Assembly: GCA_949126835.1 (NCBI GenBank)
Contig: OX421509.1
Location: forward strand, 9,816,920 to 9,880,919
Length of the DNA: 64,000 nucleotides
Origin: Anisus vortex
Lineage: Eukaryota; Mollusca; Gastropoda; Planorbidae
Reading direction: 5' to 3'
Part shown: positions 1 to 57,205 of the stretch, piece by piece
Position numbering within the stretch: the stretch's first letter is position 1
Layout: the number at the start of each line of letters is the position of its first letter
Made by a program: the position numbers and the translations under genes
Notes under the pieces: generated by a model
Told to the model about the DNA's origin: nothing
The model's input: the letters and a program-made list of their open reading frames with translations, nothing else
Database searches by the model: none

Positions 1-249
1 AAAAAGAAAAATGAAATGCCCGTTAGCTCCGGATAAGCAAAAAAAAAAAAAGCTTCAATAAGTTTAAAATATTAAAAACAATAGTAGCACAGTAACAAAT
101 CAAATTGACTATAAAAAACAACAATGATTAATGTAACATACATAGAAAACAAGGACAACTGTGCAAGCTGTGATAGATGAATATGGTGGTTGAGACAAAA
201 CAGCCAACCCTCCCCTGGATTAAACACAGACACATGACCCGTCACTTAC

Positions 250-367
250 TCGTGGATAGACTGGTGGGGGGAGAACACTTCGTCCAAGTGGTCGTGGGCC
301 GCGGGCATGAAGTCCGGCCGGTCCCTCCAGCCATCGTCCCTGTCGCTGTAGTAGCCGTCGCGGTGAC
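250..367 (-). CDS. TJP1: ZO exon, linker, last coding exon in the window
   Basis: 118-bp exon, acceptor TTGTGGACGCAG, donor GTAAGT, phase 1 in and phase 2 out. It reads [19 protein letters not shown] and later [13 protein letters not shown]. Same Asp/Arg/Tyr-rich character as the preceding linker exon. The gene continues to the left of position 1. Confidence 0.78.
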
Positions 368-15300: not shown

Positions 15301-18300
15301 ACCAAACGTGGGAATCCAGACCGAACAGAATCTACACTAAGTTCCAATATCTTCATGAAGTGTCGTTTTACCGCCAATACCGCAGCTATCAACAGAAAGA
15401 TGCTTTTAACACAGCCAATCTCAACACAAGTGTGACTGGTCCACATACATACATACATTATGGCACTATTCATGTGGGTGGGCCCGCTTTGAGAGGATGA
15501 GCGGTGTCTCGGTTCCTAAAGGTTGGGAACTGCTGCTCTATATTATGAGCCATCATACAATTTTCTCTCTTTATTGCAGGAAGATTGCAAAATATAATTA
15601 TTTTATTAAAAAAAGCTAATTAGCAGCCAACTGTCAATATGCTCACAAAGGAAAAGGTGAGCTTTTTAAACATTGGCCTCTTACAAGTTTTAAAAAAAAC
15701 ACTATATGACAAAAACACAGACTTATTTACTGAGCATTACACATGTGCACAAGAAAAGAGAGAGATAAATAGCTAAAGAGAAGAAAAATATGTCACACTG
15801 AATAAAAAATCAACTACAATATCAACAAAATGCTTGTTTTTCATTTTCAATATGCAAGGTTAAATTCAGTCAAGCAGGGCATACCTCTTCATAGGCTAGC
15901 TCAGTCTCCATGACAACAGGTCTATCCTTCATTAATCTGCTCCCTGTCCTGTCCAAAGTTGACATCCCACTATAAAGACAACAAGAAAAAAAAATAATTT
16001 TGAAAATAGTTGTACACTATTTCAACTGTGAATAAAAGTGACTTTCAACAGAACCTAAATCAAACACACACACATTTACAATGTGCATTCCTACAAAAAA
16101 AAACAACTTAAAGAATGAGATGCCTTAGAGAATTCCAAAGTGTCACCTTCAGAGAAGTCCTGCTTCAGTATAACAGGACAGACCATTAGACCATACAACC
16201 ACCTCCTGACAATAATGTTTAACAAACAAACTTGCAAAAATGGTGCAGGGTCTTGTGACAGGGTGGAATTTACAGGGCCCAGCGCTTATGCAAAAATTTC
16301 TTTTAAAAAATTCCTAATTATAGATACATTCATGCTAAATTTAAGAAATAATCTAGCGATATATACAAGGATTGTTTCCAAGGCGGTGGCATAAAGGTGG
16401 CCTATTCTGGAATGGGATTGTGCAGTCAGAAAAATGCCCAGACACCTTTTATTTCTCCAACTGGTGGAAGATGCTGGTGATCACTGACACTTCTGTACTC
16501 ATAGGCCTCAAACGGGAAGTGTAAAATGGGAAATGTAAAAACCGATTATATTATATGTTCCCTTTAGGAGTCTACCGATGGGCTAATGCAAGGGGGACAA
16601 CCTCTATTGCACGTCCGAGAATCATTGCCCTGTTAAGAGGCTCTGACACTCAGTGGGGAGGAAACAATGAGCGCAAAAGCATGTCTCGACCCCGCCCTGG
16701 TCCCTGGATATCCAGACCTATTGTGTGGGATTTGTGCTACCGGGCGCCAGTGCAGGTATATGAGCAAGCCACCACGATAACGATCCAAGGGGAACTCTGC
16801 AAGTGTGGGGAAGTGTAGTGCATATACAGCTGAGACCATACCCTTTATGTGTTTACCACAGCACTCTGAGACAGGAAAAGTTCTGCCACGACAGATCATC
16901 AACTATCAAATACTCACTCCGCCTGTCTACCAGACTTGTAGGTTTCCAAGCTGGACAGCGCCTGGTCCCTTTCCCTCTTGGTGGCCTCCAGCTGCCTCAG
17001 GGCCTCGTCCCTGGCTTCCTGGGCCCGGACGTTCTCTCGCAGCACGGCATCCCTCTCCTTCAGTGCCAACTCAAAGCCCAGCTGCAAGGCCTGTGTGGGA
17101 GGTGGGTTGTCTTCAATACCCGAGTCTGGACCTGCAAGATGTAAAAGACAAGAGTTTTCATCAAAATTATTTGGCCCTAAAGAGTTAAAAACCTTAAGAA
17201 GCTTTAACATTCTTCGCTCAACTAATGCATATTAGTAGACTCTTTTTTCCCAAACTAAGAATGTTATTCAAAATGACCTTGTAAACAGTATTTATAACAA
17301 CTCAACACAGATGATGATGGCTTAGGTTTACTGAAAATAAATACAACCAATTTAATGACTCTAGTGATAAGTCAAATGAATAACATTTATTGTATTAAAT
17401 GCATATGCAGGACCAGACTCATACCGGGAATGAGCGTAGGACGCAAGAATCTTCTTTATAGAAGGAGCGTTTGTAAGATATAAGATATCATAATATGATA
17501 TCTGGTTATGAAAATCAAAGTCTTCTTTTATCAAATAGATTAGCATAGCCGCCCTATCTGCCAAGTCAAATTCTTATCAATTCCTCCCTTCCCCATAAGT
17601 TCTCTACGTTTTTCTCTTAAAACCTCTTCAACTATTATACCCCTCTACAGTCTAATACTTGACTACTTAGTGTCAGACAATGATTTCTTTTATGATAACT
17701 TAGGAAAACTATAAATACCACGAATTTATCTCTTCTTGTCACTTTTAATCCTGCACAGCAACAGTTTAAGCATTTCAGAGTTGCTTCTCTTTGACACTCT
17801 TCTATCAATGAGGCTATAGGGAAGACTGTCTCGCCTGTATACATGCAACATAAAGCTGAATGTGGCCCGCGACATAGAGCTGAATGATGGGAATGTGGCT
17901 CGCGGCATAAAGCTGAATGTGGCTCGCGACATAAAGCTGAATGTGGCTCGCGGCAAAAAGCTGAATGTTGCTCGCGGCATAAAGCTGAATGTGGCTCGCG
18001 GCATAAAGCTGAATGTGGCTCGCGACATAAAGCTGAATGTGGCTCGCGACATTAAGCTGAATGTGCCTCTCGACATAAAGCGGAATGTGGCTCGCGACAT
18101 AAAGCCAGCCAACTTATGTCAGGTAACCATCAGAGCTTGGTAGACTCATGGACACCCTCCAGACCCGGGAACAAATCCTAAACAAGAACTTGAACCCAGA
18201 ACCTTTAATACGCCGGCCAAAACCCGCTGCCTCACGACCACCGTTCCCGCTAGAGTTGATATTATCTTTCAAACTCTTCTCTCAATGAGGCTGCGGAAAG

Positions 18301-21300
18301 ATAGTCTTTTCTGTATCCACGGGACATCAAAAAGTTCCTACATGTACTATTTCAACAACGATGCCTCTGTAAAGTGGGGAAAAATACTCAAAGATAGCAT
18401 GCATCCACTTCACAACAACTACGTAAAACATACACGTAGTGGCCGACCCCTGTCAATCAGAGCCCGAACTGAAAGGTACAAGAACTCCTTGGTTCCTTAT
18501 TCTGTGAGACTGTATCAACGCTGCCCCTGACTAAAGCATAATCAAGAGCCAGATGCGTGTTTGGCAGATTTCAAGATTAATAGTGTGTATGTGTGTGTGT
18601 GTGTTATATTTGTTCAGGTTGTTGTGCTTGTGTTCTTGTAATTGTAATACTGCAATGTAATTAAACCACATTTAATTTTTGGATCAATAAAGAAATCTTA
18701 CCTTATAAAGCTGGACGTGGCTAGCACCAACGTCTTTTCCCTATGCCCAAACTAGTGCTGCCCGGCACCTTTTAAAACTGGGTAATAAACAAGGGCCCCA
18801 CAGAAAATATATAAATATATCTATAAAAATGAAAAAAAAATAACGTTTTTTGTTTACCTGGAGTTCGAACCAGGGACCTTTGCAATGACAAGCAAAAGCG
18901 CTGCCAAAGTAAAACGGTGCCCATTCAAACTGCACACTTTTACTCAAGAGAAACTAACTCCTAAATCCTTCTAGCTTCATATAACATTACAACTTAAGGC
19001 CCCTCTGTTTTTGGCTCAAAGAAGCAGACTCACGGTGTGTAAACCACCGAATGTTTTTAAAATATAAGTAGGGAAATGTAAACTTCCGCAACATGTACAA
19101 TGGCTGGGGGGGGGGGGGGGGGCGCTGTGGTTATGGGGTTGGGGAGAGGTGGGGCATTTGAAAAGAAAAACAAAAACAAAAACGGTAGAAACAATAAAAC
19201 AATTGGCATTCCATTAACACTTAGCTGAGATGAAGGTGTGTGTTTGTGGGTGGAGGAAAGAGAGTGGAGGGTGTAACGCAGACGCGCTAAACTTACAGCT
19301 TGCAACAATACTATCATAATACGGTAAGTAGAATAAAACGAAAGAGAAAAAAAAAATAAACTACAGTATTCAGAGTAGGGTTGTTACAATTCCTGGCCCA
19401 CAAACACAAGAATACGTATGGCCGCTGAATACACATAAAAATATCTATTCACATGCAAGTATCGAAACATATTATTTTTAGACTACAGGGCTTGACATAG
19501 GGCCTATTATTTAAAAAAAAAAACAATATTATTAAAGAAATACATTTTACTTAAATTATGTTTTAATTAGGCCATATAAGATAGATTATTAATAAATATA
19601 TATTTTTACTCCCTTTATTTTAAGTTGCAATGTCTGCAATCGTCGTGCAAAACTTTGCTTCAATTTTTCGACCACTTTCCGTGGTCCAATCGAGCTGAAA
19701 TTTGGACATCAGATTTGTGGCGCCTAACAATACATCCTATCAAATTTTCGGTTAAAACGACTTAATAATATTACACTTATGACAATATTCATTTCTTAAA
19801 AGGAAAGTATAAGAAATATTTTAATTTCGCGTTAAAAATGCCTGTGCAACTTTTTATAGTTTTTCGGCGCAAAGCTAGAAAAAAAATATTATGCGCTACG
19901 ATTATTTTTAGAACAATTCATACGGAGTAAGGAGATATTTTTGAGATTTGCGACACAGATATTTTTTCTGTACGTTTCATTTGCAGTAGTCAATCAATTA
20001 TTTAATTACATGATGGTAAACTTAGTTTGCAAATAAAGGGAGTATAATGAAAACTTTGTTTTTATGGTTTTCTTGTTATTACTCCCTTTTTAGTCCCTTT
20101 ATTTTAAGTTGCATTTTCTGTCTGTCTGCAATGGTGCAAAAATTGGCTTTGATTTTTCGACCACTTCCCGTGGTCCGATCGAGCTGAAATTTGGACAGCA
20201 GACTTGCCCCAACTAACAATACATCCTATCAAATTTTCAGTTAAAACGACTTAATAATACTACATTTATGACAATATTAATTTCTTAAAAGGAAAGTATA
20301 AGAAATATTTTGATTTCGCGTTAAAAATGCCTGTGCAACTTTTTATACTTTTTCGGCGCAAAGCTAGAAAAAAAATAATGCGCTAAGATTATTTTTAGAA
20401 CAATTCATACGGAGTAAGGAGATATTTTTGAGATTTGCGACACAGATATTTTTTCTGTACGTTTCATTTGCAGTACTCTATCAATTATTTAATTACATGA
20501 TGGTAAACTTAGTTTGCAAATAAAGGGAGTATAGTAAAAACTTCGTTTTTATGGTTTTCTTGTTATGGTTTATGATAGGCCTAGGCTATTTTTTTAATTA
20601 GTCATAAAACTAGATTAATCTTATTAGTTTATGATTTCTGAAATAGGCCTACACATATTTTAACCCTTACAGTCCCGGGCGCGTATATAGCGGTACTGAA
20701 GGCGGCATAGATAGAAGTAGGTCTGTACGGGAAGGGTTAACAACCCGATACTTCTTTAAAAGTACTTTAAGAGATAAGGTTTCATATGAATGATTTCCCT
20801 TATTCTGCTTACAATTCTTGATTCAAACACACATATCATTAAATTTAATAAAAGATCTAATCGTTAGCGCTGTACCGGCCACACAATCCACGCGTAAGAC
20901 AAACGGCTATCAAAGCTGAATGGCGGCGAAGATTGAAAGAGAGAGATAGAGAAAGAGACAGATACATGCGGCTGCATAACACACACAAAAGAGAGAGGGA
21001 GAGAGAGAGAGAAAGTGCATGAAAGACATACAAGTTAATAATAGCTTGGGGAGAATGAAACTAAAACGTGAACTCACCAGAAAGGATTGAAACCAATACC
21101 GGTAACTCTTTAGTCAAGGGACACAACCAACACTCGAGGAAAACAATCGCCCCCACGTAGCAGGCAAGTGTTGAGGAAAGAGCTAGACAAAAGGTTTCTG
21201 CTATCAACAATTTCACACACACACACACACTCACCCCCCCCCCCCCCCTTTTGTATGTAGCCGGTTTTTTTTTTACCTTCCCGTGTCAGTGTGGTCAAGG

Positions 21301-24300: not shown

Positions 24301-27300
24301 TGATACTCTTTCTTACGATAAATGATGGTATGATAGGTCTAGTCACAGGCCTAGTGATAATAATAATAGTTCTAAAGTGTGTGCAAATGTCTATTTCAAA
24401 AGACAATTGTGCTTGAGTACAAATGGTTATTTAATATTGTTTTAAGTGTGCCGAAAGACAGAAATAATGAAATCAAGTAGCCTAAATTTCCATTTATTTG
24501 GATCAATAAAGTACCGGTAATCTTATTTTTTTTCTTATAAGTTTACAGACGTTCCTTCTAGATAGAAGATTATTACGTCCACTATGCCCAAAACTCCTGC
24601 AGAGCGACAGGGATCCGTCGGTTGCAGGGATAGAACCCGCGACGTGTCAGTTGGTTTTTGGTTGACAGTCCGGTGAACTAACCGCTGGACCAGCCGGCTT
24701 ATCTAATACCGCGGGCCACGGATGAGCGTAGGACGCAATAATCTTCTTAATAGAAGGAGCATCTGTAATGTATAAGATAAGATAATTAATTCAAACAAAA
24801 GGTTAGGCCTATTTAGCCTAGATGTTAGTATTAGTAGGATATTGTTAGGGTCGAAAGGCCTACTTCAAGTCAAATTCAAATAGGGTTAGTTAGGCCCTTG
24901 CTATGAAGCCATAAAATAATATATAGGTAGTAACTATATTAATAATTAAAAAGTCGAAATAAAACCCATTTTTGGATATTAAGAAAACCTATATCGGAAG
25001 TAGATATAGTTAAGTGACGGTCCATGCGGTCGGCAGTCTTTTCTCATAACTCACAAGGAACGCAGGCATTATTTTAGACTCAGGATAAATAAATAAAATT
25101 GTGTATTATGTTGATACTATAAAGCTATATTTGTTCATTGGATGTGAAGTGTCAACTGTTAATGAATTGTTATTAAATAATATGCTGCAATAAGTCGTTC
25201 TTTTATTATTTACAAGTTTGGAAGTTATATTGTGGTGATGTCGTCCATTTTGATGTTCAAATCAATCAAATAATTCAGCTACTGCAACTCAAATACTCTG
25301 AGAAGACTGGTGGTAATGTTTGATAGTCCAATAATAATAATAGGACATCAACAGGTTTGGTGGCAGCTAACGGAGAGAGAAGCTGAAGGATATAATATTA
25401 TGTTCAAATTCGAAACTTTTTGAACTTTTTGAAGACGTACTACAAACCACATGGAAAATTATGTGAGTACCAGTTTTTGATCAAAACTGAAGCCTGAGTC
25501 AATTATTTCAAATACATATACTATTTATATGATTGAGCACTATAATAGCTCTAAGAAAATATAACGTTTGTACACCGATGACAAATATTTCATCATTGGA
25601 AAATTCGATACATAAAATCGAAAAAAAAGTGACTATACGTAGATCATTATTTGCAACCGGAAAAAGTTTCGTTCCCACATGTTATCAACAAGGAACCTAA
25701 ACTATATACATATGTTCAAGTCCGATGTTCAAATCCGATGTGACACAACCATGTGTTGAATTTTATGTAGCCTACATAACCATATGTTCAAATCCGATGT
25801 GACACAACGATGTGTTGAATTTTATGTAGAATAACCACATGTTCAAATCCGATGTGACACGACCAGGTGTTGAAATCTGATGTGTTGAAGTCCGATGTGC
25901 TTATCGGAAGATAAATAAATAACATTAAATAACTTTAAATATAATTAATATTTAATCTGTATACCAAAGACTTTGACATTAATTTTAATTAATGGTATAC
26001 ATTTTTTTCTTGTGTTCATTCTAAAATTGGATTATACCATACTGAAGTGGAAACTTGAAGCAACTCAACTTGATACAGTGTGAACATTCATTGGATTATT
26101 AAATAATTAATTAAGTTTCTTCTTGATTTCTACTCTGGATTTACATTGCAGTAATTTCATACAGTGAATGTGTTTTCATTTGGATTATTAAGTAATCTTT
26201 AATTTAATCATATTTTTTACATTCATTAGTATGAATTATATATATATATGTATTATTTATGTATAAAGCGGGCTCTGGTTGGCGGGACTTTCTAAAATAA
26301 ATCTCTTGTCTATTCTTATTCTGTCTATCATCTATTTCTATTTCTTAAAAGAGATTGATTAGAAATGATTCTTTGTTAGGGTTATTTCTGTTAGTTGTCT
26401 TGACTTTGTTTGTTATTGTTAAGAATTATTAAAGTAAAATTACTATAGTCTTGTCAATGTTATACATGTTGTGATTCTTTGTCAAAAATTCCTCTATCAT
26501 TTGTGGTCCAAGCAGCATTAGTGTATTGTGATTGTGTTTTTTTTTCTATTGTTACTTGATATAATTTTTTTGTTGTGTATTTTTTGAGATATCATTAATA
26601 TGCATTGGTTAGTTTTTGCTCTCTGAGTATAATGGTCTATGGTAAGAACATTAACAATAATAAGTTCACCTAGATAATAATAATATCAATATTCACATTC
26701 ATAACTATATAATTTAAGTAGTGCCCAATTACATGTAACTACAATTAACAAAATAATAATTGATATCTAATACATGTAACTATAAATGTACAAAATATTC
26801 ACAATATAACAGGTAAAATAACCTAAATAAAAATAATATTGTGCTTTGCAGTGCTACTGTAATAATATTATCTAGAATTTACATTGCTATTAATTATAGT
26901 AAAATTATTGTGTATTGGCATTAATGAAAATGTACTTCCAGTAATCACAATGAAAATGTACTTCCAATACTGATAATAATTACATCCATTTCAATTGCTC
27001 ATAAGAATAATATCATAGTGGCTTATGATAACATTAATCTAATTGTTATATGCCATCCTCAATAATAATAATAATATTGTATATGTGCTACCATTGGTAA
27101 TAATAAGATTGTACTTTGCTTTGCGGAAAATATTTGTGCAACCTATATAGTAATAATAAGTCACAATAGTAAAAAGTGACTTGCACTTGCTTTAAACTCT
27201 ACTATAAAATTGCTAATAATAATAAAATAAACAAGCCATAATTGAAAATGTGTCTTGGCTTAGCATACTTGTTGACATTCTAGCATTTTGCATTCTGAAT

Positions 27301-30300
27301 TATAAACATTTTACTACAGCATAGGATTAAAAAAAAAAAAGTTGCTGTGATATTATATGACTGCTCATTCTGTATTTAATAAATATTGTCATTCAGTAAT
27401 ATAAAAATGCTCATTCAGTAATTAATAAATATTGCCATCCAGTATAGGAATAAAACATTGCTGTACTATAAAAATAGTGCATTATAATAATTGTACTGTA
27501 CTATAATATAATAAATCTTGACATTCATAATAAATAATAATGGAGTCAAAGGTTCAATTACTCTATGATGAGGCTAAATTGTTAGCAAAAAAATATGGTA
27601 TTACTGATAAGAAGGAATATCAGGAATTTGTTGAAAATAAAGTTAAACAATTGAAAAAAGAATTAGCAGATAAGGAAAGAAATGAGCGAGCAGAATTAAG
27701 AGCTCATGAAATTAAACAAAAAGAACTTGATAATGAAATTAAACAAAAAGAACTAGAAATGAATAAAGAAAAAGAATTGAAAGCACTAGAATTAAAAGAA
27801 AAAGAATTACAATTGAATAAAGAAAAAGAAATTCAATTGAAAGAAACTCAACTAAAATTAACTCATGAATTGGAGTTGGCTAAGTTGCAAAATACTAAAG
27901 TTGAGCAAACAAATAATGAAAAATCAAAACATAGTGTAAGATTTAAAATGCCTCCTTTTGATGGAAAAGAGAAAATTGTTGATTTTCTAAATTTATTTGA
28001 AGCAACATGTAAAGGATATGGGATTCCCATTTCAGAATATTACATTCACCTTATCCCACAATTGAAAGATAAGGGTAGGGAAGCACTATCACATATTGAT
28101 AAAGAAATAACTGATTATGCCATTATCAAAGAACAGTTAATAAAATTCTTTATCCACTCTGAGGATTATTACAGACAAAAGTTTCATAACTTTATCTTAA
28201 CAGACAAGATAGAACCGAGAGCTTTTGTGTCTGAAGTGAAAACATTTTTACTTACCTGGTTAGACTTAGTAAAAATAGATACCAAAAATCCTAATGAGAT
28301 TATAGAAATCATGGTTGTTGATAAAGTATTAGAACAAGCTTCTAAACCATTGTTTACTCACATTATGGAAAGAAAAGTTAAGACAGTTGAGAGTTTGATA
28401 GATGCAATCTCAAATTTTAAGGATAGTCATCCTAATGTAGAACTGACTAAACAAAATCAAACAGTAAATACAATTCAACATAGAAGAAGGAGCTATTCAC
28501 CTCCTAGGTCTAGACATAATCAATTTGGCAATAGAAAAAAATTTGGTAATCAACCAAAATCTAATAATTATAGATGTATTTTTTGCAATGGTACAAACCA
28601 TTCATCAGAATATTGTTACAGAAATAACAATGCAAGAGGTAGAAATTTCAATCCAAACTTCAATAGATCAAATGTTGATCATAGAGGTTTTTCAAATCAA
28701 AATTTTTCTAATTTTGATAATAGAAACTTTCCAAATCAGAATTTTTCAAATTTTGGAAACAGAAATATGCCAAATCAGAATTTTTCCAATAACACTGTGC
28801 CAAATCAACATGTTGGAAGACAAGATTTTCCTAATACTCAAAACAGACCTCAATCAAATTTCCAAAATAGAACAAATAGAGGAAAACTTAACAATTCCAC
28901 ATCTCAATCTAATAATGTCATATTTGAAAACAGGGGTCAATTAATACTTTTTCCTGCTTATGTGGAAGGAAAGACCACTTACTGTCTAAGAGACACCGGA
29001 AGTAGTATAATATGTATAGATGAAAGTATCATTCCAAATCAGAAACCCACCAATATAATAAGAGTGGATACAATAAAACTTGCAAATGGTTCCACAATAA
29101 ATTGTCCTGTCACTATAATAGACATTGATTGTCCTTGGCTCACTGGAAAAGCAGAGGCAGCCATAATGAAAAACTGTGTTGCACCTTTAATTATTGGTAA
29201 TTCTTTCAATGTCAAACATGATAATAGTTTTGACATTTTTCAAAAATGGATGAATGAAAAATCCAATGACTTGAATTTGAAACCTGTTCTATTGCAAAAT
29301 GAGAAGTTAGTAGATTTACCAGAACAAGAATTTTACCCTGCTCTACAAACTTTTAATTTCTTACAAACCATAGGAAAGTCAGAAAATAATATTCTCTATG
29401 AGACACCTAATATTGACTTATCCATAAATAATGAAAAGGATAATCCTATTCCCAAATGGAATGGAACAGAAAAACTAGAACAGTATGTAAGCAAATTTGA
29501 AAATCAATGTGAAATAAACAATGTACCAAAAGAATTACATGCTATTTCATTATGTAGACATTTAGAAGGTCATAAACAAATATTCAACATTGCTAAAAAT
29601 CAAATATCTGATTTTACTAAAATGAAGAGTGAGATATTATCATACATTGATAGTCCTCATAAAAAGGAAACCCAAATGAAAAAAACAGAAAATATCACTT
29701 TAATAAACATGCCTTTTGATGAGCTAACTCTAAAACAAGAACAGAAAGAAGATCCATACATAATTAAAATGGTATCAGAAATTGAAAAAGGTCAGGTTAA
29801 AAATAAAAACATTGAAATAATAAATGGAATTCTCTGTAGAAAGGACACTAAATTAGATGTAACTCAAATAGTTATACCTAAAACATTAACTGTCAAAGTA
29901 ATGCAAATTTCGCACAACAATGCATTGTCAGGTCATTTGAGTAGCAAGAAAACAGTTTGTAAACTTAAAAAGAATTTCTGGTGGCCTAAAATGGAAAAAG
30001 ATTTGAAAACATTTATTAAAAGCTGTGATACCTGTCTTAGACATAATAAAAAAGATTCTAAACATAAGGCTCCAATACAAATGACCGATACCATAAACAA
30101 ACCTTTTTACAAGATAGCAGTTGATATCAAAGAAAATATTCATAAAAACATGAGAAAACTGGAACTGGAATATTTGCCAATTGGCAGTGGCAATACTATG
30201 GAATGGAGAGGACCTTTTGAAATAATACTTAAGCTATCTGATGTATTTTACAAGGTTAACATTAATAACAAAGAGAAAATTGTTCATTTAAACAATTTGA

Positions 30301-33300
30301 GAACTTATGAGGAAAACAAAGTTTTTGAAAATAAATCAGAAGATGATTTGATAATTGAAAATAAATCAGAAGATGATATCAATAAATCAGAACATGCAAA
30401 AATGACATTAAATAAATGTTGTTCAATATTAAAAAGCTATAATAGGGAAAATAAAAGCAAAATAATTGAAATTGAAAATAAACCAGACAATGATATTAGT
30501 AAATCTGAACATAGAAAAATAACATTGAGAAAATGTTGTGAAATTCTAAAGAATTTTAGCAGAGAACTCACGTATAATCAATAAAATTATATATAGGAAT
30601 AACTAAATTTATGAAAAAGGATATGATATTTTCAGTAACGAGTATAATGACATGATAACATTTTTTTTTCTTTTGTAAAGAACAAATATGTAAATATGGA
30701 TACTGCTGTAAATAATTTAATTGATGAGATATAATCACCACTTGCAAAACTGAATAATCTACAGTGTTGAATTATAAATAGCTGAGCTGATAAAAATAAT
30801 AATTGTCAGTTGGAATAATTTTTTTTATGTAGCCTCTGAACAGTTTGGTAAGACTGTTAAGCACATAAAATTTTGTGGCCTCTGAACAGTGAATCTGTTA
30901 TGCCATATGTTAACATTAATATGCCTATGTAAGTCTTTAAAAAAGCATTAGAGGAATTGAAATAAGAATGATATAATAATGTAATGCCTATGTAAGACTC
31001 TAAAGTCAGAGCATTAGATGATAATATTGTATTGTATTCATGTAAGACTAAAGATAGCATTGAAGCCAATAAATAAATGATACATATAAGACTCACAGGA
31101 AGATGAGCAGTGTAATATAAATATATAATTGAAGGGAAGACTTGAATAACTTGTGTAATATTTTATTGTAAACTAAGATGGAAGATAATCATGTTACATT
31201 GTAAGTAATGTTATTGAGAATATCAATCAATAATAATCAAAAACAATCAATAATAATCAAGAATAATCAAGAATATCAATTCAAAATAAATATTATGAAG
31301 ATATATATTCATAATAACCATTATGAGAACTTCAATACAAAATGACAATTAAAAAAACCGACATTAATATTATGTTAATCTTATTGTATAAAATAATAAA
31401 TGTTGTATGAAAAAATTTTTTTCATAGAATCTTTATAGATTTTGTGAGATAAAGATAATAATCTCGACAGCCTTGATGAGTATTTAGCATAATAATTATC
31501 GATACACATCACTGATATCCAATAGTTTATCTCAGTGTTACTGAAGTTGATTAGACAATACCTAAAGATAGTTGTCTATGACTAATTGTCATATTAACAT
31601 TAGACATTATTCTTTGTGTCTTTTGTTTATATTTCTGCTTATAAATATGTTTTTTGATTGTTTGTACATATATTAAATGAATTTTTTTTTTTTTCTCTAT
31701 GTATTATTAAATGAATGATTATATGCATTAATTAAGATTAAGATAATTTTTTTCATTATTGTAAACATTTTTCGTATCAAAAATACCCCCCAACCACAGA
31801 GAAAAAATAATAATTTATTATTATTTTTTCTCTGTGGTTGGGGGGTATGCTATGAAGCCATAAAATAATATATAGGTAGTAACTATATTAATAATTAAAA
31901 AGTCGAAATAAAACCCATTTTTGGATATTAAGAAAACCTATATCGGAAGTAGATATAGTTAAGTGACGGTCCATGCGGTCGGCAGTCTTTTCTCATAACT
32001 CACAAGGAACGCAGGCATTATTTTAGACTCAGGATAAATAAATAAAATTGTGTATTATGTTGATACTATAAAGCTATATTTGTTCATTGGATGTGAAGTG
32101 TCAACTGTTAATGAATTGTTATTAAATAATATGCTGCAATAAGTCGTTCTTTTATTATTTACAAGTTTGGAAGTTATATTGTGGTGATGTCGTCCATTTT
32201 GATGTTCAAATCAATCAAATAATTCAGCTACTGCAACTCAAATACTCTGAGAAGACTGGTGGTAATGTTTGATAGTCCAATAATAATAATAGGACATCAA
32301 CAGCCCTGTTAGGTTAGGGCTTTATTTTTATCAATAAATAGGCCTACCTCCTTCTAGCTAGGAATATGATCCTAAATAATAGACTTTAGGTCACTTTAGG
32401 TAAGTTTAGGCCTATCTATAGATTAGTAGGCCTATAGGCTACTATAACTATAACTATATCTATAAGATAATAAGTATAGGCCTAAGTTAATATAAGTCAT
32501 AAGTATAGGCCTAAGTTAATATAAGTCATAAGTAGGCATATAGCCTAACTCTCACAATTGTTCGAAAATTTGGGTCTGCCGTTAACACTCGGCGTTTTTC
32601 GAAAATTTGGGTCTTCCGATAACGCTCGGCGTTATTCGAAGATTTGGTTCTTCCGATAACGCTCGGCGTTATATGAACAGTTCTTCGAATAACGCTTCCC
32701 ATTTTAAAGTGTCAGGGGGGGGGGGGGGGGGGCACATTTATGGTTTTACTACAGAGAGAATAGTAAACCTATTAGGTGGGGGGGGGGGCACATTTATTGT
32801 TTGACTAAAGAGAGAATAGTAAACCTATTAGGTGGGGGGCACATTTATTGTTTGACTACAGAGAGAATAGTAAACCTATTAGGTGGGGGGGGGGGGCACA
32901 TTTATTGTTTGACTACAGAGAGAATAGTAAACCTATTAGGTGGGCCCGCCTGAGTCACCACCCGGCGGTTTACCCTCCCCGCCCTTAAACTCCGGAGATG
33001 TCCAAAAGGTTGTGGGAATATTTCTATGCGTGTATGTATTCTCGCGACAAAATGAAAAGTTGGCAATACGGTGTAAAATAAGAATAGCTAACTACATGGC
33101 GTCCAAAGAGGAAGTCACCTTAAGACTTGAGAGGAAGCCTTTAAACTAATTTGAAGATTTTTTAAATATTTACACAGTAAAATTCGAACACTTTTAAAAA
33201 ACAAGAAGTGTCAAGGTAATTAATGCTTCAGCTGAATATTTTTTCAGAACAAATTATTAGTAGTCCGCTTTAAAAAGAAATGTGAAGTCCACTTTTGTGT

Positions 33301-39300: not shown

Positions 39301-42300
39301 AGAACAGAATGCGCAATCGCATTTTTTTTCTGTTTCCGGAAGTAATACCGACGCCATACTGTTTAAACGCAGCGGTCCTAGTTACACTATATATTTATGC
39401 TTATTTACAATGTCTTTTTTCATCAAATCTACAATTTCGAACACCGAAAGCTAATGTTTCAGGCAAAAGGTACAGAGGCTGCTGTGTAATAAACTGCAAC
39501 AATTATTCGAAAACGATAGATTATCATACAAATAAGCATGTTAAACTACATGGCTTTCCTGACATCGTAAAGGATAAACAACGGAAAGTTGTAACCTCAT
39601 ATTACTTAATATTAGTAGCCTTGCTTCAGTCCTAAGCTTGCTAAAACTAGATATCATTAATAAATTAAGCCTTTCTCATTTTACGATAGTAGCGTCTCTA
39701 GTGACCGCTGCCTTCAATCAAAAGAAAATGGTGGAAGCCGAGCTTCACTTTTAGTGACTGTGCGTATAAGGATTGCGCATTCTGTTCTATACCTATTCTG
39801 TGAGCCGGCCCCACTCCCTGATGTCATCCTCCCCATTGTCTCTTCTGTCTGCCTCTCTTTCTTCCACCCTGCACTGTGCCCTGCAGGGTGGTTTCCGCCA
39901 GGCCTTCGGTGGATCTTGCCACATGCACGCATTCCGGTCAAACATAAAAAAAAAACACAACCCTGTTTTCCTGTACGAGACACAAACTGACCTACTTCAC
40001 TGTGACAGGAAACACACATTCAACTGCTCAGGCCATTTATAAATGTTTCAACAAAACATGTCAGAAATTGAATAGACGGCCCTCGCGTGTGCCAGTGTGA
40101 CACCTTTAAATGAGAAATGGTGTGTGTGAGGGGGGAAGGGAAGCAACTGATTAATGTTACGTTGTTGTTTTTTTTTTGCGTTTGCAGTTGTCTATTTTAC
40201 CGCGTGTGCATAAGTGTCAGTGCCAAGTGGCGTATTTCAATTGTAGTGTTTCCACACAAAGGCGCCAGTGGGATCTTTGTGAGTGTGTGCAGGTGTCATT
40301 TAGGGTTTGGTGTGTGGGAGGGGGGGGGGAGAGGCTGTATGAGCTCAGTCTGTCCACTTACAGTCTGGAAGACTTTCTTGGATAATTAATGTTACTTAAA
40401 AACTAATGTACTTTAAGACATTTTCTACTGTCTTAAAATTTTTAGATATATATATATAGGTACTCATATCGCACTGATAACATTAAAAAAATATTCTTTA
40501 ACGAAATATAGATCTACAACTCCAGTAGCCTACACACGATTAAAAAAAAAAGACATACATCGCTCTGTTCGGACAACGGTAAGTTAAAACGAGTCAATTG
40601 TGCGATCGAAGAAGCATTGGAATTAGAGAAGGGATCGGAAACCTACGGCGCGCGTGGCAAGACTTGGCACGTGTATAACAACATTCAATGGCACGCGGAA
40701 GACCCACCAAAAAACGGCAATAGCAAGTCTCTTCTGCAAGAAACTGATTGATTGCGCAGGTTGAATTTTTAAGTCTGTTGGCACAATTAGAAATTCTCAA
40801 TTTTATCAAAAAAAGGTTTTCGACTCCCTGGAGCAGAGGATCAAAATCAGTGGTTGTCAGTGTCACAGTTCTGGATTAAACTATGACTTATTAGCACTAA
40901 TGTAGATAGATAGTAGAACGCAAGATCATAGATTAGCGTATAAGTTTAGAATAGAAAGGAGGAGAGCGGTCTGACGCCATAAAACATCTCTATCTCACTC
41001 AACTGTAACACTCAACACTTTTCCTTAATCTTCACTACACTTTTTATTCCTAAATTCAGAGGTTACTGACTTATGCTACCGAGATGGTACACAATTTTGA
41101 ATGAATGAGAAGTATGTGTGTCAGATATGTGAATTCCTTAATGTATATATTTATGTCATGTCAATAACTATACTATTATTCTTATTACTACTGTATTGGC
41201 AGCGTGTCTACCTAGACCATCACACCTTCCTTCCCATAACTAACTCTTGTTAATTAAGTCCCCGGTGAGGAGTGATAAATCGACCCCCCCTCCCTTGACA
41301 CCTTGACACCCATTGTGCTGGCTGTATTAGTGCCTTCATGTACACCCGCCTAAACCCCCCCTTTTTTCTCCCCTAGTGAATCATCGTGTCATTCCATTGT
41401 CTATGGATACCTTCAAACCAGCCAATGAGAATCAGATGTAAATGAAAGTAATTAAAGGATTAACCAACCAAATTGAGCGGGAGCACGTGATTTTAGATAG
41501 AGAAGGGTTAGCGGGCATTTTTGGACAGTCTTGGTTTGACTAGCAGAGAGACTAGTCTTGGTTTGGGAGCGGTGTGGACTAGTCTTGTTTTAACCGCACA
41601 GCCTGTAAACTTGCTTTTAGCTGTATATTTCGACATACATATTGTACCATTGGATTATTGAATGAAAATAAATACTAGAACTGTATCCAGCGTTTGTTTG
41701 CATAGCTTAGAACTGTCTGTTTGTGTGTTTAATAACATCTAAACGAGCCAGTAGAGAACAAATAAATATTCCAGGTCAACTACAGCATCGGCACCTCATA
41801 CCTCTAAGACAACCAGCCATTATTACCCCCTCTCAATTGCCACATCGTGACAAAGTGGGACCTCGTGTCCGGGATTATCTGAACTCCAAGCCGTTCAGCG
41901 CACTGTCAACAGCAACAACCCGAGGACTACGCCGATTCTGAAACCGACCCTGGATGGGGGCTCATCTCTCTACAACACAAAGACTCTAAGCCAGCAACCA
42001 GACCCGTCATCCCAACGCCAGCAACCAGATCCATCAACCCATCAAACCAGGCTCGCCACTTTACGCAGCCTACGCCACCCCAGCCTACGCTTACGCCACC
42101 CCAGCCTACGCCTACGACACCCCAGCCTACGCTTACGCCACCCCAGCCTACGCCTGCGACACCCCAGCCTACGCTTACGCCACCCCAGCCTACGCCTACG
42201 TCACCCCAGCCTACGCACCCCAGATACGCCAACCTAAGCCACCCCAGATTCGCCACTCCGAGCAATCTACGCCACCCCAGCTCGCCACACTACGCCAGCC

Positions 42301-45300
42301 TACGTCACCCCAGACACACCAGCAACCAAATTTGCCACCCCAGTACGCCAGATTTGCCGCCCCAACCGCCAGGTCGCCACCCTCTGGCCCCGCATCAACG
42401 TACCGGCACCCGAGACGTCAGCAGAGAGACCCACCGCCGCCGCACCAGCCTGCCCGACAACTAGAGACCGCCGAGAACCCGACAACTGCCCTGTCAACCT
42501 CCCCGTAGGAACCCGCCGTAGTTCCCGGTATCCAAACCCGGAAAAATAGACACTAACATTAAACGCTAATCCAGTCCCGGCACGGGGAAAGAGAATTCCT
42601 AACCAGCCCGAAGTTATCTGCACCAACAGCGCCGAGCGCCATATAAACGATAACTTTATGATTGGATATACGTGTGTTAGTGTATGTGTGTAAAATTCCG
42701 GAATTGCTGTCTGGTGAGTACCATTTTGAGTTGTATTACGTTAGCTAAACTCTGAACCCCAACACCCCTCCTATATTTTCCTTTCTATCTCGCTATACCT
42801 CTGTCCGCCTCTAGTATCTTAATCTCGCCTCACTCTGTTACTATGGCGGAAGGTGTACTATTGCGTAAGCAGTTGAGAGAAGAGGCTATAGCTATAGGCT
42901 ACATTGACTCAGACATCACTAAATACGTAGTAGAGCAGGTAGCGGCCCATGAGGCCAAGACAGAGAGACTTAGATTAGAACAGGTGGCTAGAGAGGAGAG
43001 AGCAGAACAATTAGAAAGAGAAGATAGGCTTAGAGTAGAACAATTAGCTAGAGAGGAGAGAGAGAAACATAGATTAGACGAGGAAGCACGCAGGGCACAC
43101 GAATTCAGATTAGCTGAATTAGCAGCAAGTGTTAGGGCCCCCGATAACAACGACAACCCAAGCTCCCCCTCATCATTTAGTTCAGCCACCCCCAACCATC
43201 CCCTCCCCAGACATGCTTCTCTATGGACCGACGTCCACGACCCCCGTTTAGAACAGTTTGACATCTACCTCCGGCGGTTTAGCGACTGCATGGAGTTGAA
43301 TGAGGTCCCCCCAGAATTGCATTGTAGGATCCTCGTCTCCACTCTGAGAGGAGAGGACTACGAGGCTTACTGTAAACTGGCCCCAGAAGACAGGGAGTCA
43401 TGCGCTGCACTGAAGAACGCGCTGTTAAACCGGCACCAGTTGCACGCGTCCCACTACCAGAAAAAGTTTCGGTCGTCCACGCTACGACCAGGGGAGAACT
43501 ACACCCGATTCGCGGAACGAATACAATCCTACCTTCTTAAGTGGGTTGAGTTGGGAAATATCGAGCAGTCATTCGACGGTATGGTCACCCTCCTAATGAC
43601 TGAGCAGGTAGAGTCACAAATGACACCTAAACTCAAGGCTTTCCTGATACAACACGGGATCGAAGGGTTACCCTCCTCCCTACAAAGCGCAGATAGATTT
43701 CTGCAAGCCAACAAGGTAGAATCGTCCCACCCCCGGGAGAAATCTCTCTCACATCCCGCTTCCCGACCGGAAAATGGGAGGTCGACACGGCCACCGGGCC
43801 ATCTGTCCCCCCCGGGTCACCCACAGTCACCCTGGAATAACTGGGACAACCACCGCACCAACCCTCCCCCACTAATCAGCCAAACCAGCTTCCCGTCGAC
43901 CCGACCGGGTCCACCCCAACCCAGACCCCCCCCCCCCCCCCGCCCCCCTCAAGACTCCCGACGTGCGGGCCAACCATACCAACCGACCAGGGCACAAACC
44001 GGCACCGGGCAAACCCAATCGACTCGACGAGGTAACTCCACTGGGCAACAGCCTAATGCACATACCGGCCCTAATCACTCCCAGAACCCCCCCCCCCCCC
44101 CGAGGAGTATACACCATCACCCTTTGCCCTGCGGACACCCCCCGGACGCACGACCCAGAAACCGACACCCCCCCGCTTACACCCTCCGACAAACCGGAAA
44201 CCAAGACAGAAAGAAATATAGAGATCAACTCTAAAAGAGCCAGGGCCCTTCTCGACTCAGGATGCCAGATCGATGGGTTCGCTAAGACCTCCTTCGTGAG
44301 TCCCTCCGATTACACCGGCGAGTCAATCCAATATAGAGTGGTAACGGGAGAAGTTGAGTCCCTCCCAACCGCCAAGGTTCACATCAAGTCACAACCATAC
44401 ACTGGCACGGCTACCTTAGCAGTCCGAGCCAAATTACCCTATGACGTCATCCTGGGGGAACGATACGTCAACCTTGCCGATGTCCCCCTCCCTCCCCTAG
44501 CCTCAGTGGCCACACGCGCGCACCCTGACCCTGTTCCCCACCCTCTCGAGGAATCCCCCACGGCCCACGAATTCCTGCGGGCCCAACAGGAAGACTCGAC
44601 CCTGGCCCCACTGTTCGCTAAGGTCGGTCAAAACCCAGACCCCCCGAAACCCCACTCGTTTATTCAAAAAGGGAAACGACTGTTCCGACGGTCCAGCCTC
44701 CCTGACGGATCGGTCAGAGACCAGCTCATCATTCCCGGTCCCTACAGTAGACAAGTAATGGAGGCGGCCCACGACTCAACCCTGGGTGGTCACCAAGGGC
44801 AAGGGTCCACAATCAACAAAATCACCCATTATTTCCACTGGCCCGGCATGCACAATGAGATCAAACGATTTGTAGCGTCATGCCACCAATGCCAGCTCAT
44901 GTCCAAGGCCCACCACACTAAACCAGTACCGTTAGGTAAACACCCGGTGACCGACACACCCTTTCAGCGGGTGTCAGTAGACCTCGTCGGGCCACTTCCC
45001 ATAACACGTAAGAAGAACAGGTTCATACTCTGCGTGATATGTCAGGCCACCAATTGGCCGGAAGCGGTAGCGTTGCCGAAAGAGGACGCGAAACACGTGG
45101 CCGAGGCACTGTTTACCATTTTCACGAGAGTGGGGTTTCCCGAAGTCCTACTCTCCGATAACGGGCCCCAATTCACCGGTACACTGATGAGAGAAGCGCT
45201 GCACATAATGAACACCACCCACATCCGATCCTCCCCCTACCACCCTCAATGCAATGGGCTAGTCGAACGTTTTAACCAAACTTTAATCGGGCTGTTAAAG

Positions 45301-48300
45301 AAAACCGTCGATGGCCCTCTGGATGAGTGGGACACACTCTTCCCCACAGCCTTATTCGCATATCGGTCCACCCCCCCCCCATTCTACTCTAGGCTACACT
45401 CCCTATGAGATGTTATTCGGTTCCCAACCCCGTGGGCCTCTAGAACTCCTCAAGCGCGCCTGGACCAATCCTTCCCCACATCCAGAAGAACTCTCCGTCC
45501 ACGCCTACATCAACAACTTAAAGGCTAGGCTTAAAACTGTCCACACTATTGCCTCAAAACACTTAGCCAAGGAAAGGGAGAAACAGGAGAAACTATACAA
45601 TCGGCGGGCCAAAGAACGCTCTCTGGCTCCGGGCGATAAGGCACTACTGCTCCTCCCCTCCTCTTACAACAAACTCCAGTTAGCATGGAGAGGCCCCTAC
45701 CCAGTTACAAAAAAGCTCTCAGGCACTAACTACCTCATCAAAGTCGGAAACAAAGACAAACTGTTCCACATCAACCTGCTAAAACAATACCTCGAACGCC
45801 CACTCGACGATACGCCCCTTGTAGCAACCGCCATCGCGGAAGAAACAGAAGCCGATGACTCACTGACCGCGTTTCCCTTACATAAGGGAGAAACCATGGA
45901 TGACGTAGGAATCTGTCCCCTCTTAACCCCTGAACAGATCAAAACAGTCAAAAACTTACTTTCCTCACACTCAGATGTGCTAACTGACACCCCAGGACGT
46001 ACTAACTTAGAGACGTTCACCATGAAAGTCACGGACCCGCGACCCATTACGGTCAAGCCATATGCTATGCCCCACGCCAAACTGGACGTCATTGAGAAAG
46101 AAATCAATTATCTGTTAGCCCATAACATCATCGCGAGTTCAACCTCCCCATACAATGCGCCGATAGTATTAGTAAAGAAATCAGACGGATCTCACCGCAT
46201 GTGCGTAGATTTCCGCCGGTTAAACGCAGTCACTGAATTTCAAGTCGAGCCCATGCCAGACCCTGATTTACTATTTTCAAAAACTGAGCAACGCTCAATA
46301 CTTTTCCAAGTTTGACCTTAGCAAGGGGTTCTTCCAAATAGAAGTGGAAGAGAAGTGCCGCCCTTACCTCGCCTTTACCACCGACCAAGGCCACTTCGAA
46401 TTCCAAACCGTCCCCTTTGGCCTAAACAATTCCCCCTCCGTGTTCACTCGCATGATGCGAAAACTGATCCAGCCAATTGACCGACCTGGGATCACCCACT
46501 TCGTGGATGACATCTTGATAGCCACGCCCACCTGGGCAGAACATGTGGAAACGATAACCGCTCTACTAGCTAGACTCCGCGAAACCGGCCTAACCGCCAG
46601 GCCGTCGAAATGCATGGTAGGTTTCAATAAACTGAAATTCTTAGGTCACATGATCGAAAAGAACAAAATAATGCCAGACAAAACCAAAGTTGAGAAAATT
46701 AAGTTAGCCCCTCAGCCCACCACCAAATCAGGTATAAGGTCCCTCCTAGGATTAACAGGGTATTACCAAAAGTTCATACCGCAATACAATAGCATCGCGG
46801 CCCCTTTAACAGACTTGACGCGGAAAAACCTCCCGGAAAAAGTCACCTGGTCAACAGAATGCCAGCTAGCGTTCGACCAGCTGAAGGCTGCTCTCACTAG
46901 TAAACCCATACTCCGTCTGCCTGACCCGACCCGCCCCTACGTATTGAAGTGCGACGCTAGTGGACGCGCCGTCGGCGCGGCCCTGCTACAACCCGACCCG
47001 GAGCATGATAATATGCTGTTTCCCGTAGCTTATGCCTCGCGTAAGCTCAACGCCACCCAAATGAATTACGGTACTTCTGAGCTAGAATGTTTGGCTCTTG
47101 TGTTTGGAATTGAGAAGTTCCACGTGTACCTATACGGTCGGCATTTCATCCTCCACACAGACCACCAACCCCTCACGTTTCTCGCATGCGCAAAAAACCT
47201 AAACAGAAGGTTAATGAGATACTCTCTCACCCTGTCACAGTACAGCTTCCAGACCATCTACCAGTCTGGGAAGGAACACCATCTCGCAGATTTCCTGTCA
47301 CGGTACTCCGATTCAGACCCCAGCCCTGACTCGGGACCCACTGACACCCCTCAGACCCCTGCCCCAGACACAGTAATTTAGGTGAATTTACTCCTAGAGT
47401 AAATTCCCAAGTTGCCCGGGCGAATGTCACAGTTCTGGATTAAACTATGACTTATTAGCACTAATGTAGATAGATAGTAGAACGCAAGATCATAGATTAG
47501 CGTATAAGTTTAGAATAGAAAGGAGGAGAGCGGTCTGACGCCATAAAACATCTCTATCTCACTCAACTGTAACACTCAACACTTTTCCTTAATCTTCACT
47601 ACACTTTTTATTCCTAAATTCAGAGGTTACTGACTTATGCTACCGAGATGGTACACAATCTTGAATGAATGAGAAGTATGTGTGTCAGATATGTGAATTC
47701 CTTAATGTATATATTTATGTCATGTCAATAACTATACTATTATTCTTATTACTACTGTATTGGCAGCGTGTCTACCTAGACCATCACACCTTCCTTCCCA
47801 TAACTAACTCTTGTTAATTAAGTCCCCGGTGAGGAGTGATAAATCGACCCCCCCCTCCCTTGACACCCATTGTGCTGGCTGTATTAGTGCCTTCATGTAC
47901 ACCCGCCTAAACCCCCCCTTTTTTCTCCCCTAGTGAATCATCGTGTCATTCCATTGTCTATGGATACCTTCAAACCAGCCAATGAGAATCAGATGTAAAT
48001 GAAAGTAATTAAAGGATTAACCAACCAAATTGAGCGGGAGCACGTGATTTTAGATAGAGAAGGGTTAGCGGGCATTTTTGGACAGTCTTGGTTTGACTAG
48101 CAGAGAGACTAGTCTTGGTTTGGGAGCGGTGTGGACTAGTCTTGTTTTAACCGCCCAGCCTGTAAACTTGCTTTTAGCTGTATATTTCGACATACATATT
48201 GTACCATTGGATTATTGAATGAAAATAAATACTAGAACTGTATCCAGCGTTTGTTTGCATAGCTTAGAACTGTCTGTTTGTGTGTTTAATAACATCTAAA

Positions 48301-51300: not shown

Positions 51301-54300
51301 CAAATGCAAGGGGGGGGGGGGGGGGGGGGGGAAGCTAAAATGGCAAAAGACCTAAGATTCTCCACAAAGATCTTTCTCGGATTTGACACGGACCGCTGCG
51401 CACTTTGCTTCCTCCCCACCGAGGCTCGGAGCTTCTCGGCGGTGCAATGACGCGCAGCAGGGACTGCCCCCCCCCCCCCCCAGGGCGTTCGCACGCCGGT
51501 GTATTCTCAATGTGTACGTATCGGCGGTTTACACGCTCCGACCGTCTTTGAGACCCATAAGGACCCTCTAAGACCATCTCGCACGGGGAAGGTAAAAGGA
51601 AACAAATTATGATTTTTAAAACTCCGAAACAAAACTTGGGATAGTGAGTGTGTTGGGGGGAGGGGGTATTTTAGTGAATAAAAGACGGAAAGTGTTAGCT
51701 TGTGAGTTTTTTTTATCGATAGTCATCGTCACATTAATTAGTCTAACCTGTCTGTTTTGCAGTTCCATGTGTCCATTAACTTGTGTCAACACCTACTCAC
51801 AGGCCGTCAATACCAACAAATTACCAACAAATTACGGTATATAATGTCAGCAATACAATCAATACAAATTTGTATCAATACAACACAACAATTCAATCAT
51901 ATTGTAACAGGGTTCTCACATTTTTCCTGAAAAAATTCAAGGCTGTTTCCAGACTATTTCAAGGTTATAAGAGCAGAATTCCAGGCTGCTGGAACACGTT
52001 ATTTGGAAAATGGTCACACGCCTCATCCCTCTAAAAGACCTAAATATTGCGTGAATGAGGCATGAATCTTAAGGCTTGGTCAGTGGGCATTTATGACGTA
52101 TAAAAATGGGATTGGCGTTTTTTGTCTGACCTTGATTTTTATAATAAATTTAGATATAAATTTAGATAAATTTCCAGGTTGACAGACTATTTTTCCAGGC
52201 TAAAATGCCAATATTCAAGGTTGTCCAGGCCTTGATTTGTGTTTTTGAAAATCCAGACTTTTCCAGACTGTGTGAGAACCCTGTGTAACTCCACTGTCAA
52301 CACTACAATCATAATAAGTCGTTAGCACTACATACATATTTTGTTATCATATATATATATATATATCCTATATAAATAACGAATATAATAATATGAATTT
52401 TTTTTTACAAACGCAACAGTATAGGAAAGGACAACACTAATTCCAAAAGAACTGGAAATCCAAGACTAATCACATCAACAACAAAAGAGCTCTGGGCAAT
52501 AGGTCACATCCGTGGACAACAAGGCTGGGCAATAGGTCACATCCGTGGACAACAAGGCTGGGCAATAGGTCACATCCGTGGACAACAAGGCTGGGCAATA
52601 TGCCCTTCTAAGACTAACTGAAAGCGAAACGAAAGCCTGAATTCTGGGTAATTTTGATCTGGTCAACTGAACTACCTTGTGCTATTGTCCAGGTTAAGGG
52701 TCACTTTAGGCTACAGTGGTTGTGTAAGAAGACCTCCAGATTAATTTCAAATAATAAATTCAAACTATAACCCAAATCTATCAGGGTCACGGTGCTCATG
52801 ATTACAGAGAATGATATATATATAATATATCCTAGAACCTATATATCCTAGAACCTATATATCCTAGAACCTACATATCCTAGAACCTATATATCCTAGA
52901 ACCTATATATCCTAGAACCTATATATCCTAGAACCTATATATCCTAGAACCTATATATCCTAGAACCTATATATCCTAGAACCTATATATCCTAGAACCT
53001 ACATATCCTAGAACCTATATATCCTAGAACCTATATATCCTAGAACCTATATATCCTAGAACCTATATATCCTAGAACCTATATATCCTAGAACCTATAT
53101 ATCCTAGAACCTATATATCCTAGAACCTACATATCCTAGAACCTATATATCCTAGAACCTATATATCCTAGAACCTATATATCCTAGAACCTATATATCC
53201 TAGAACCTATATATCCTAGAACCTATATATCCTAGAACCTATATATCCTAGAACCTACATATCCTAGAACCTACATATCCTAGAACCTATATATCCTAGA
53301 ACCTATATATCCTAGAACCTATATATCCTAGAACCTACATATCCTAGAACCTATATATCCTAGAACCTATATATCCTAGAACCTATATATCCTAGAACCT
53401 ATATATCCTAGAACCTATATATCCTAGAACCTATATATCCTAGAACCTATATATCCTAGAACCTATATATCCTAGAACCTATACATCCTAGAACCTATAT
53501 ATATATCCTAGAACCTATCACAACTGTCAAAGTGTGGGCTCTGCCTTGCAATGGGAAAATGAAAAAAAAGCTATTCAATCAATCACCAGGAGTTCAGCTA
53601 AAATCAATCAGCATGATTTGAAAGTGTCTACTGCTCTGGTATTTTTTACCCTTACAGAACGATCACACTAGCAGTACTGACTAATTTTGAAAACAAAATT
53701 TGGATATATTCCACCTGTTGCAGTGTTAGATCCAATGTTATTAGACAAAATCAGTTAAAATGTCTTTATTTTGAGACCCTTTAAAATCAATCCCTCAAAA
53801 ACAACCATCGAATTAGTTTTATTAAATAAGAAAATAAATAAAAAATTGCAAAAATCATAATAAGTTGTGATGAGCTAAATATTACACAAACATATTGATC
53901 TGATTGTTTTGTTGTTTTTTTTGGTATTATCTTTTTTATATGCACATATTCACATATAAACCATTTATTACTCAAACAAAAAATGTACAAATCGTTAAGT
54001 TATAATTTTAATCTGTCAACTCAAGTTATAGGCTATAGTATAGTTTTGTGCAAGAAAGGATTTAACAGTCTTTTTAAAGACTTTTTGTCAAAGTTCCCTA
54101 ACTGCAAGTTGCTTTTCAGAGTTAGGGCCTACTTATAAAATATATGAACATTTCTTCTGTATCCGTGTTCATTTTTATGGCCATGTGGAAAGAATGGACT
54201 CATTGACTAGCCTAAAATGCTTAATGGACAAATGACAAAAGAAATGCACAGACTCATCATTGACTCTGTACCGTAGTACAATTTGAAGAATCTTACAATG

Positions 54301-57205: not shown

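Follow-up and report, generated by a model that had tools for sequence, protein, structure and literature searches.

In the freshwater snail Anisus vortex, a gene of the ZO/TJP family almost certainly begins with a CARD: as read from its exons, the encoded protein would run CARD, short coiled coil, PDZ1-3, SH3, GUK and ZU5. The exons of this front end lie on the minus strand of the 64,000-nucleotide stretch of DNA analysed here (the window; Table 1). The initial annotation had proposed a CARD-coiled coil-PDZ-PDZ layout on a ZO scaffold; this domain order was found, and its N-terminal part is laid out like DLG5 and the CARMA proteins. We assign a probability of about 70% to the reading as a whole, in which the CARD front end would belong to ZO, would be made as an isoform and would serve in assembly at cell junctions.

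Table 1. Coding exons of the ZO front end, and its first intron, in window coordinates
Feature	Position	Strand	Evidence and remarks
First coding exon: initiator Met and complete CARD, 93 aa	56926..57205	-	phase-1 donor; Pfam CARD, six-helix model, Biomphalaria ZO-1 identity
Intron 1, 39.8 kb	17132..56925	-	contains two LTR retrotransposons and a 16-bp minisatellite
Coiled-coil exon, phase 1 to 2	16918..17131	-	putative coiled coil, called by eye from heptads
Exon 3, linker (GMSTLDR...ELAYEE), phase 2 to 0	15885..15969	-	splice sites, Biomphalaria identity
36-nt microexon, phase 0/0, possibly alternative	14670..14705	-	acceptor atttcag, donor gtaagatt; Biomphalaria identity
Exon 4, start of ZO PDZ1 region	7566..7613	-	splice site, Biomphalaria identity
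PDZ1 exon (ends ...GKLQ)	6692..6817	-	tblastn with Biomphalaria ZO-1 and human TJP1; single genome match
PDZ1, second part	6445..6543	-	boundaries approximate; Biomphalaria ZO-1/human TJP1 matching
PDZ1 end / PDZ2 start	4708..4803	-	boundaries approximate
PDZ2 core	3144..3260	-	boundaries approximate
PDZ2 end and linker	2543..2713	-	boundaries approximate
Inter-PDZ linker exon	1125..1343	-	boundaries approximate
Linker exon preceding PDZ3	249..377	-	PDZ3, SH3, GUK and ZU5 continue outside the window to C18:9769244

Exons and splice sites of the front end

The minus strand carries all three exons proposed initially (CARD, coiled coil and linker), and their splice sites follow the consensus. The donor of the CARD exon (ATCAAG/GTTAGT after 56926) faces the acceptor of the coiled-coil exon (cttgcag before 17131), whose own donor (GGCGGA/GTGAGT after 16918) is followed by the exon 3 acceptor (tttatag before 15969); the exon 3 donor reads GAAGAG/GTATGC after 15885 and the exon 4 acceptor atttcag before 7613. 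Exon lengths of 280, 214 and 85 nt lead to phases 1, 2 and 0, so that the claimed match of splice phases stands. As evidence, however, it is weak and alone insufficient, because nearly all other CARD exons of the genome also have phase-1 donors (42 of the 44 in which the donor could be called, among 58 control exons). The claimed join from 15885 to 7613 has both of its splice sites, but a 36-nt microexon, missed in the initial annotation, intervenes at 14705-14670; its Biomphalaria counterpart is LRFTSSSLLNNQ. The exon joins are supported, since protein models of other snails span them. Identities between the window and Biomphalaria amount to 82/93 residues in the CARD, 58/70 in the coiled coil, 20/28 in exon 3, 9/12 in the microexon, 16/16 in exon 4 and 41/42 in the first PDZ1 exon.

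Several repeats were seen in and around these exons. The two LTR retrotransposons of intron 1 (24899-32147 and 40861-48157) carry their frames on the plus strand, and their insertions look young, because the 300-nt LTR samples that were compared show 100% identity. In the element at 40861-48157 the integrase frame precedes the RT/RNase H frame, an arrangement opposite to the one usual in Gypsy elements and found in Gmr1-like ones. The minisatellite extends from 52681 to about 53650, with units that are 98-100% alike in its middle part, and a 31-bp tandem repeat at about 1940-2185 appears as shifted copies of one translated frame of the minus strand. Above the CARD exon, an open reading frame of 278 aa (59938-60771, minus strand) has at least 146 listed matches in the genome and no Pfam hit; as these matches are spread over the genome and most are broken by stops, we regard it as a dispersed repeat and not as a neighbouring gene.

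The CARD

In the Pfam check proposed with the initial annotation, the 93-aa exon scored 52.2 bits against the CARD model. The curated cut-off is 23.9 bits, and the structure predicted for the exon is a six-helix model (pLDDT 87.7); by its score and its helical bundle we classify it as a CARD. A structure comparison, made as a second look at the top 183 PDB chains from Foldseek, likewise had CARD structures in its top rows.

CARDs are expanded in this genome. There are 59 CARD matches, most of them of one type (MSRGKLKPED...CIQ.NYVYLKENLDALDIVDYLFQ) and concentrated on contigs C15 and C18, with C86 also listed.

Identity of the ZO gene

Searched against the 863-Mb genome at E <= 0.001, the CARD, coiled-coil and PDZ1 exons each match a single place. 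Beyond the window, the gene continues on C18 to C18:9769244 with PDZ3, SH3, GUK, ZU5 and a ZO-type C-terminus. Human TJP1 and Biomphalaria ZO-1 both recover three PDZ domains, SH3 and GUK in order on one strand, as in a ZO/TJP MAGUK, and the ZU5 domain with the conserved end (here VSILVDHF) at C18:9773327-9769244 marks the gene as ZO/TJP. With the Biomphalaria ZO-1 model (P0001, 1836 aa), which starts with the same CARD, we obtained a chain of 26 same-strand segments covering 1486 residues (1534 with overlaps), where segments had to be in order, on the minus strand and at least 55% identical. In this chain 24 of the 26 segments have E-values of at most 1e-7; the other two have 1e-5 and 3e-4.

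The putative coiled coil

An 18-residue stretch of the coiled-coil motif is invariant in an alignment of nine sequences from snails, scallop, clam, octopus, chiton, brachiopod, amphioxus and nemertean. After the motif, an ERD/ARD unit, read by eye in the window sequence, recurs every 14 residues and might form a short coiled coil. The best match of the coiled-coil profile in the PDB had an E-value of only 0.13.

Among the 132 proteins collected in our searches (see below), the exact 14-residue motif occurs in 22 and a looser form in 26; the latter are all 26 non-vertebrate proteins of the set, and the looser form is confined to them. A longer, 19-residue motif is found in 17 of the 132, Mytilus being without its second half. 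All 106 vertebrate proteins that retain the CARD are without the motif. That 22 of 26 non-vertebrate proteins, including those of amphioxus and molluscs, preserve it exactly suggests a conserved partner.

Distribution and age of the front end

A collection of 5.8 billion proteins was searched three times, using the N-terminus from the window (19 proteins), an amphioxus N-terminus (28) and a killifish CARD (106); together these gave the 132 distinct proteins. Many of these are isoforms of one species, so that the counts are not independent, and the related models are mostly computed predictions. Precomputed Pfam annotation places a CARD in 127 of them; the other five come from a nemertean, a hemichordate, a spider, Bulinus (a partial model) and Nucella (a model that seems to start in the wrong place). 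On rescanning, the spider protein (Larinioides ZO-1, P0024) scored 24.1 bits for CARD against the cut-off of 23.9 and was found to have a variant coiled-coil motif; it may represent an arthropod that retains a diverged CARD front end.

Among the matches listed, CARD-bearing ZO proteins come from gastropods, bivalves, cephalopods, a chiton, a brachiopod, two amphioxus species, bony fish including sturgeons, and one Xenopus. Amniotes, insects, annelids and cnidarians do not appear among the listed cluster representatives, in a search that reaches only sequences with exact short words in common and thus leaves their absence unproven. The same CARD front end is present in the ZO-1 models of other molluscs; over the first 200 residues, the window query is 79% identical to Biomphalaria, 69% to Physella and 68% to Lymnaea. 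Throughout the invertebrate ZO-1 models (Biomphalaria, Lymnaea, Pecten, Lingula, Octopus, Branchiostoma and others) we find this CARD, the coiled coil and the ZO body, with differences by sequence divergence only. The snail query leads to amphioxus and the amphioxus query to fish. From this distribution, the CARD front end is probably ancestral to Bilateria and at least as old as the split between spiralians and chordates. The vertebrate forms found appear to be devoid of the coiled coil, and the listed matches include no CARD-bearing amniote.

The initial annotation mentioned, with some uncertainty, that CARD-bearing ZO homologues had been noted in invertebrates, and such homologues do exist: they occur in invertebrate models, in fish models and in zebrafish (PMC10703405). 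Among the matches listed in the literature we searched, there is no report of a CARD on an invertebrate ZO, and the accessible text of PMC10703405 is the only one to place a CARD on any ZO. A conserved N-terminus of this kind is thus already on record, in print for one fish isoform and in gene models open to the public; what would surprise a specialist is its evolutionary depth, its coiled coil and its parallel in DLG5.

According to the accessible parts of that paper, zebrafish tjp1b has three start sites, and the CARD is found in ZO1b-Alpha alone. This form is expressed mainly outside neurons, was not found at electrical synapses and bound Cx34.1 in the same way as the CARD-less forms; the clones of its specific exons were made from genomic DNA instead of cDNA. 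The same parts are silent on the function and the evolutionary depth of the CARD (PMC10703405). Snail ZO shares the N-terminal CARD with ZO1b-Alpha, where it comes from its own upstream first exon. In contrast to snail ZO, fish ZO-1 models (from fish other than zebrafish) have no coiled-coil motif between CARD and PDZ1. In our CARD tree the ZO CARDs group together (87/88, not starred), which identifies the snail domain as an orthologue of the fish ZO-1 CARD. By analogy with zebrafish, the snail would, with somewhat better than even odds, also make a separate CARD-bearing ZO isoform.

Relation to CARMA, CARD9 and DLG5

The CARD tree had 41 rows and 95 columns, with a bootstrap that was not fully settled. 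It contained 19 ZO CARDs, eleven named non-ZO CARDs, all human, and, from the snail's own genome, 10 hand-picked CARDs of the 57 non-DLG5 ones fetched plus L050. The human CARMA/CARD9 CARDs (CARD9, CARD10, CARD11 and CARD14) form one group (99/99) without ZO. Constraining ZO to CARD10/11/14 without CARD9 made the tree 15.8 log units worse (p-AU 0.054). A placement of the ZO group beside the CARMA/CARD9 group was not rejected (p-AU 0.368). The suggestion that the ZO gene bears on how CARMA proteins arose thus found no support here: this grouping and the cost of the constraint speak against derivation of the CARMA CARD from ZO, if short of formal rejection.

The wider union of ZO, DLG5 and CARMA/CARD9 was not rejected, and neither was any of five control unions; a union of ZO with DLG5 alone was not rejected either, nor were these same controls, with APAF1, CASP9, BCL10, CRADD and the snail CARD family (p-AU 0.24-0.52). 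Since the controls pass too, 95 columns are unable to settle the ZO/DLG5/CARMA union or the sister of the ZO CARD, and we do not claim kinship to DLG5 from a tree that equally allows all five controls. In a profile comparison that included all 58 fetched CARDs of the genome, a snail CARD came first among the non-ZO matches (41.7 bits), followed by human DLG5 (36.4), CASP9 (35.3), APAF1 (34.9) and CARD9 (34.2 bits), so that none stood out clearly. Human CARD9 had no match in the snail genome at 1e-3, in a search without positive control.

DLG5 of the snail is a separate locus (G000:C3:31950900-31965432, minus strand; L050, L083 and L084). The best DLG5 matches are there, so the gene in the window is not the DLG5 orthologue. 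Upstream of the DLG5 exons, which follow one another in order, is a CARD encoded in one exon that has its own ATG and a phase-1 donor; position and strand link it to them. DLG5 and snail ZO share the order of CARD, coiled coil and PDZ, the coiled coil of DLG5 being much longer, and the DLG5 family is not known to have a ZU5 domain. CARMA1-3 (CARD11, CARD14 and CARD10) also share with snail ZO the outline CARD-coiled coil-PDZ-SH3-GUK, but have one PDZ domain and no known ZU5, and differ in the grouping of their human CARDs with CARD9.

The accessible parts of three earlier studies bear on these relationships. A 2007 survey found a CARD in CARMA; for Dlg5 it reported DUF622 or a CARD in mouse and human, and neither in the remaining species that it covered (PMC1978500). 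In a 2010 survey, ZO and CARMA are sisters, with DLG5 next, and a CARD-PDZ-SH3-GUK protein of the sponge Amphimedon, sister to DLG5, ZO and CARMA together, is proposed as the ancestral form; as described there, this protein has a CARD on a MAGUK, like snail ZO, but is not a ZO (PMC2859873). A 2018 proposal has CARMA arise in jawed vertebrates, by fusion of a CARD9-like protein to a ZO-1- or Dlg5-like MAGUK (PMC5978004). The presence of two CARD-coiled coil-PDZ MAGUKs in one invertebrate fits the 2010 idea of an ancestral form without proving it.

Possible role and alternative explanations

The CARD-bearing form would be made by transcription from a distant first exon, some 40 kb ahead of exon 2, much as ZO1b-Alpha arises from its own start site. 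The CARD would add homotypic CARD-CARD contacts to the scaffold and the coiled coil would add pairing, by which a CARD-bearing ZO could cluster more strongly at cell junctions or dock a CARD protein there. Judged by the predicted fold and by what CARDs do, homotypic assembly on the junction scaffold would be the likeliest role of the domain, and a tie of ZO to death-fold polymer signalling, as suggested initially, is plausible from the fold. We give slightly less than even odds to such CARD-driven assembly actually taking place at junctions.

Two alternatives concern origins. The CARD exon could be part of another gene, joined to ZO by eye, given its distance of 40 kb to the next exon, the mobile elements between them and the large CARD family, partly on the same contig as ZO. 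We find this scarcely credible: the ZO-1 models of Biomphalaria, Physella and Lymnaea bear this CARD too and likewise start with MAGKSGIAR, a relative is present in amphioxus and fish models, and the exon matches the genome once and is unlike the expanded family. The in-order Biomphalaria ZO-1 chain on the same strand also counts strongly against it. Vertebrate CARMA, for its part, could descend directly from a CARD-bearing ZO that kept its CARD, and not from the fusion of a MAGUK with a CARD9-like protein. A CARD-coiled coil-PDZ ZO shows that the raw material existed, and ZO and CARMA are sisters in the SH3+GUK tree of the 2010 survey, some nodes of which are weak according to its authors (PMC2859873, in its accessible part). 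Set against this are the common group of human CARMA and CARD9 CARDs, the cost of separating them and the fusion proposed in 2018, and we consider direct descent improbable.

The other two alternatives concern function. By a CARMA-like route, the ZO CARD would nucleate BCL10 and activate MALT1/NF-kB from the junction. The CARD fold is present, and molluscs are reported to have Bcl10 in the accessible part of PMC5978004. At the basic-patch positions of CARMA1 (R35, K41, K69 and R72), the window has Q, K, P and R, matching two of four, and the 19 ZO CARDs are basic in 10, 15, 2 (in a column adjoining an alignment gap) and 16 cases; human CARD9, human CARD14 and the snail DLG5 CARD have three of four. 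CARD9 and CARD14 use BCL10 even so. The R72 column says little, because it is basic in five of seven other human CARDs, the remaining columns being basic in one of seven each. The missing R35 is the residue whose loss hurts BCL10 binding most among the basic residues of CARMA1, according to the accessible text of PMC3411838, and ZO CARDs fall outside the CARMA/CARD9 group. MALT1_Ig had no match in the snail genome, nor in any control genome, and is uninformative. On this soft evidence the BCL10 route appears unlikely for snail ZO and is not favoured. Slightly less likely still, the CARD would be regulatory only, folding back on the scaffold or acting as a decoy without forming assemblies. An autoinhibited CARD-coiled-coil dimer of CARD9 has been solved (entry 6n2m), and the ZO coiled coil closely follows the CARD in a similar arrangement; since the 106 vertebrate matches keep the CARD without the coiled-coil motif, an obligatory lock of this kind is not general.

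Implications

Textbook knowledge of the junction scaffold ZO-1 comes largely from mammals, and the matches listed include no mammalian CARD form. If animals from snails to frogs make CARD-bearing ZO, a death-fold assembly module would be part of the original tight-junction scaffold, and such proteins would offer a concrete test of the relationship between DLG5, ZO and CARMA, and of junctions seeding CARD assemblies. More tentatively, the CARD-coiled coil-PDZ layout may predate the split of DLG5 and ZO, junction scaffolds having begun as death-fold assembly proteins; bilaterian ZO would have kept this layout, with loss of the coiled coil from vertebrate ZO-1 and of the CARD in amniotes. A living CARD-bearing ZO would then give a direct view of the pre-CARMA link between junctions and immunity, one that the amniote loss of the CARD would have hidden from mammalian cell biology.
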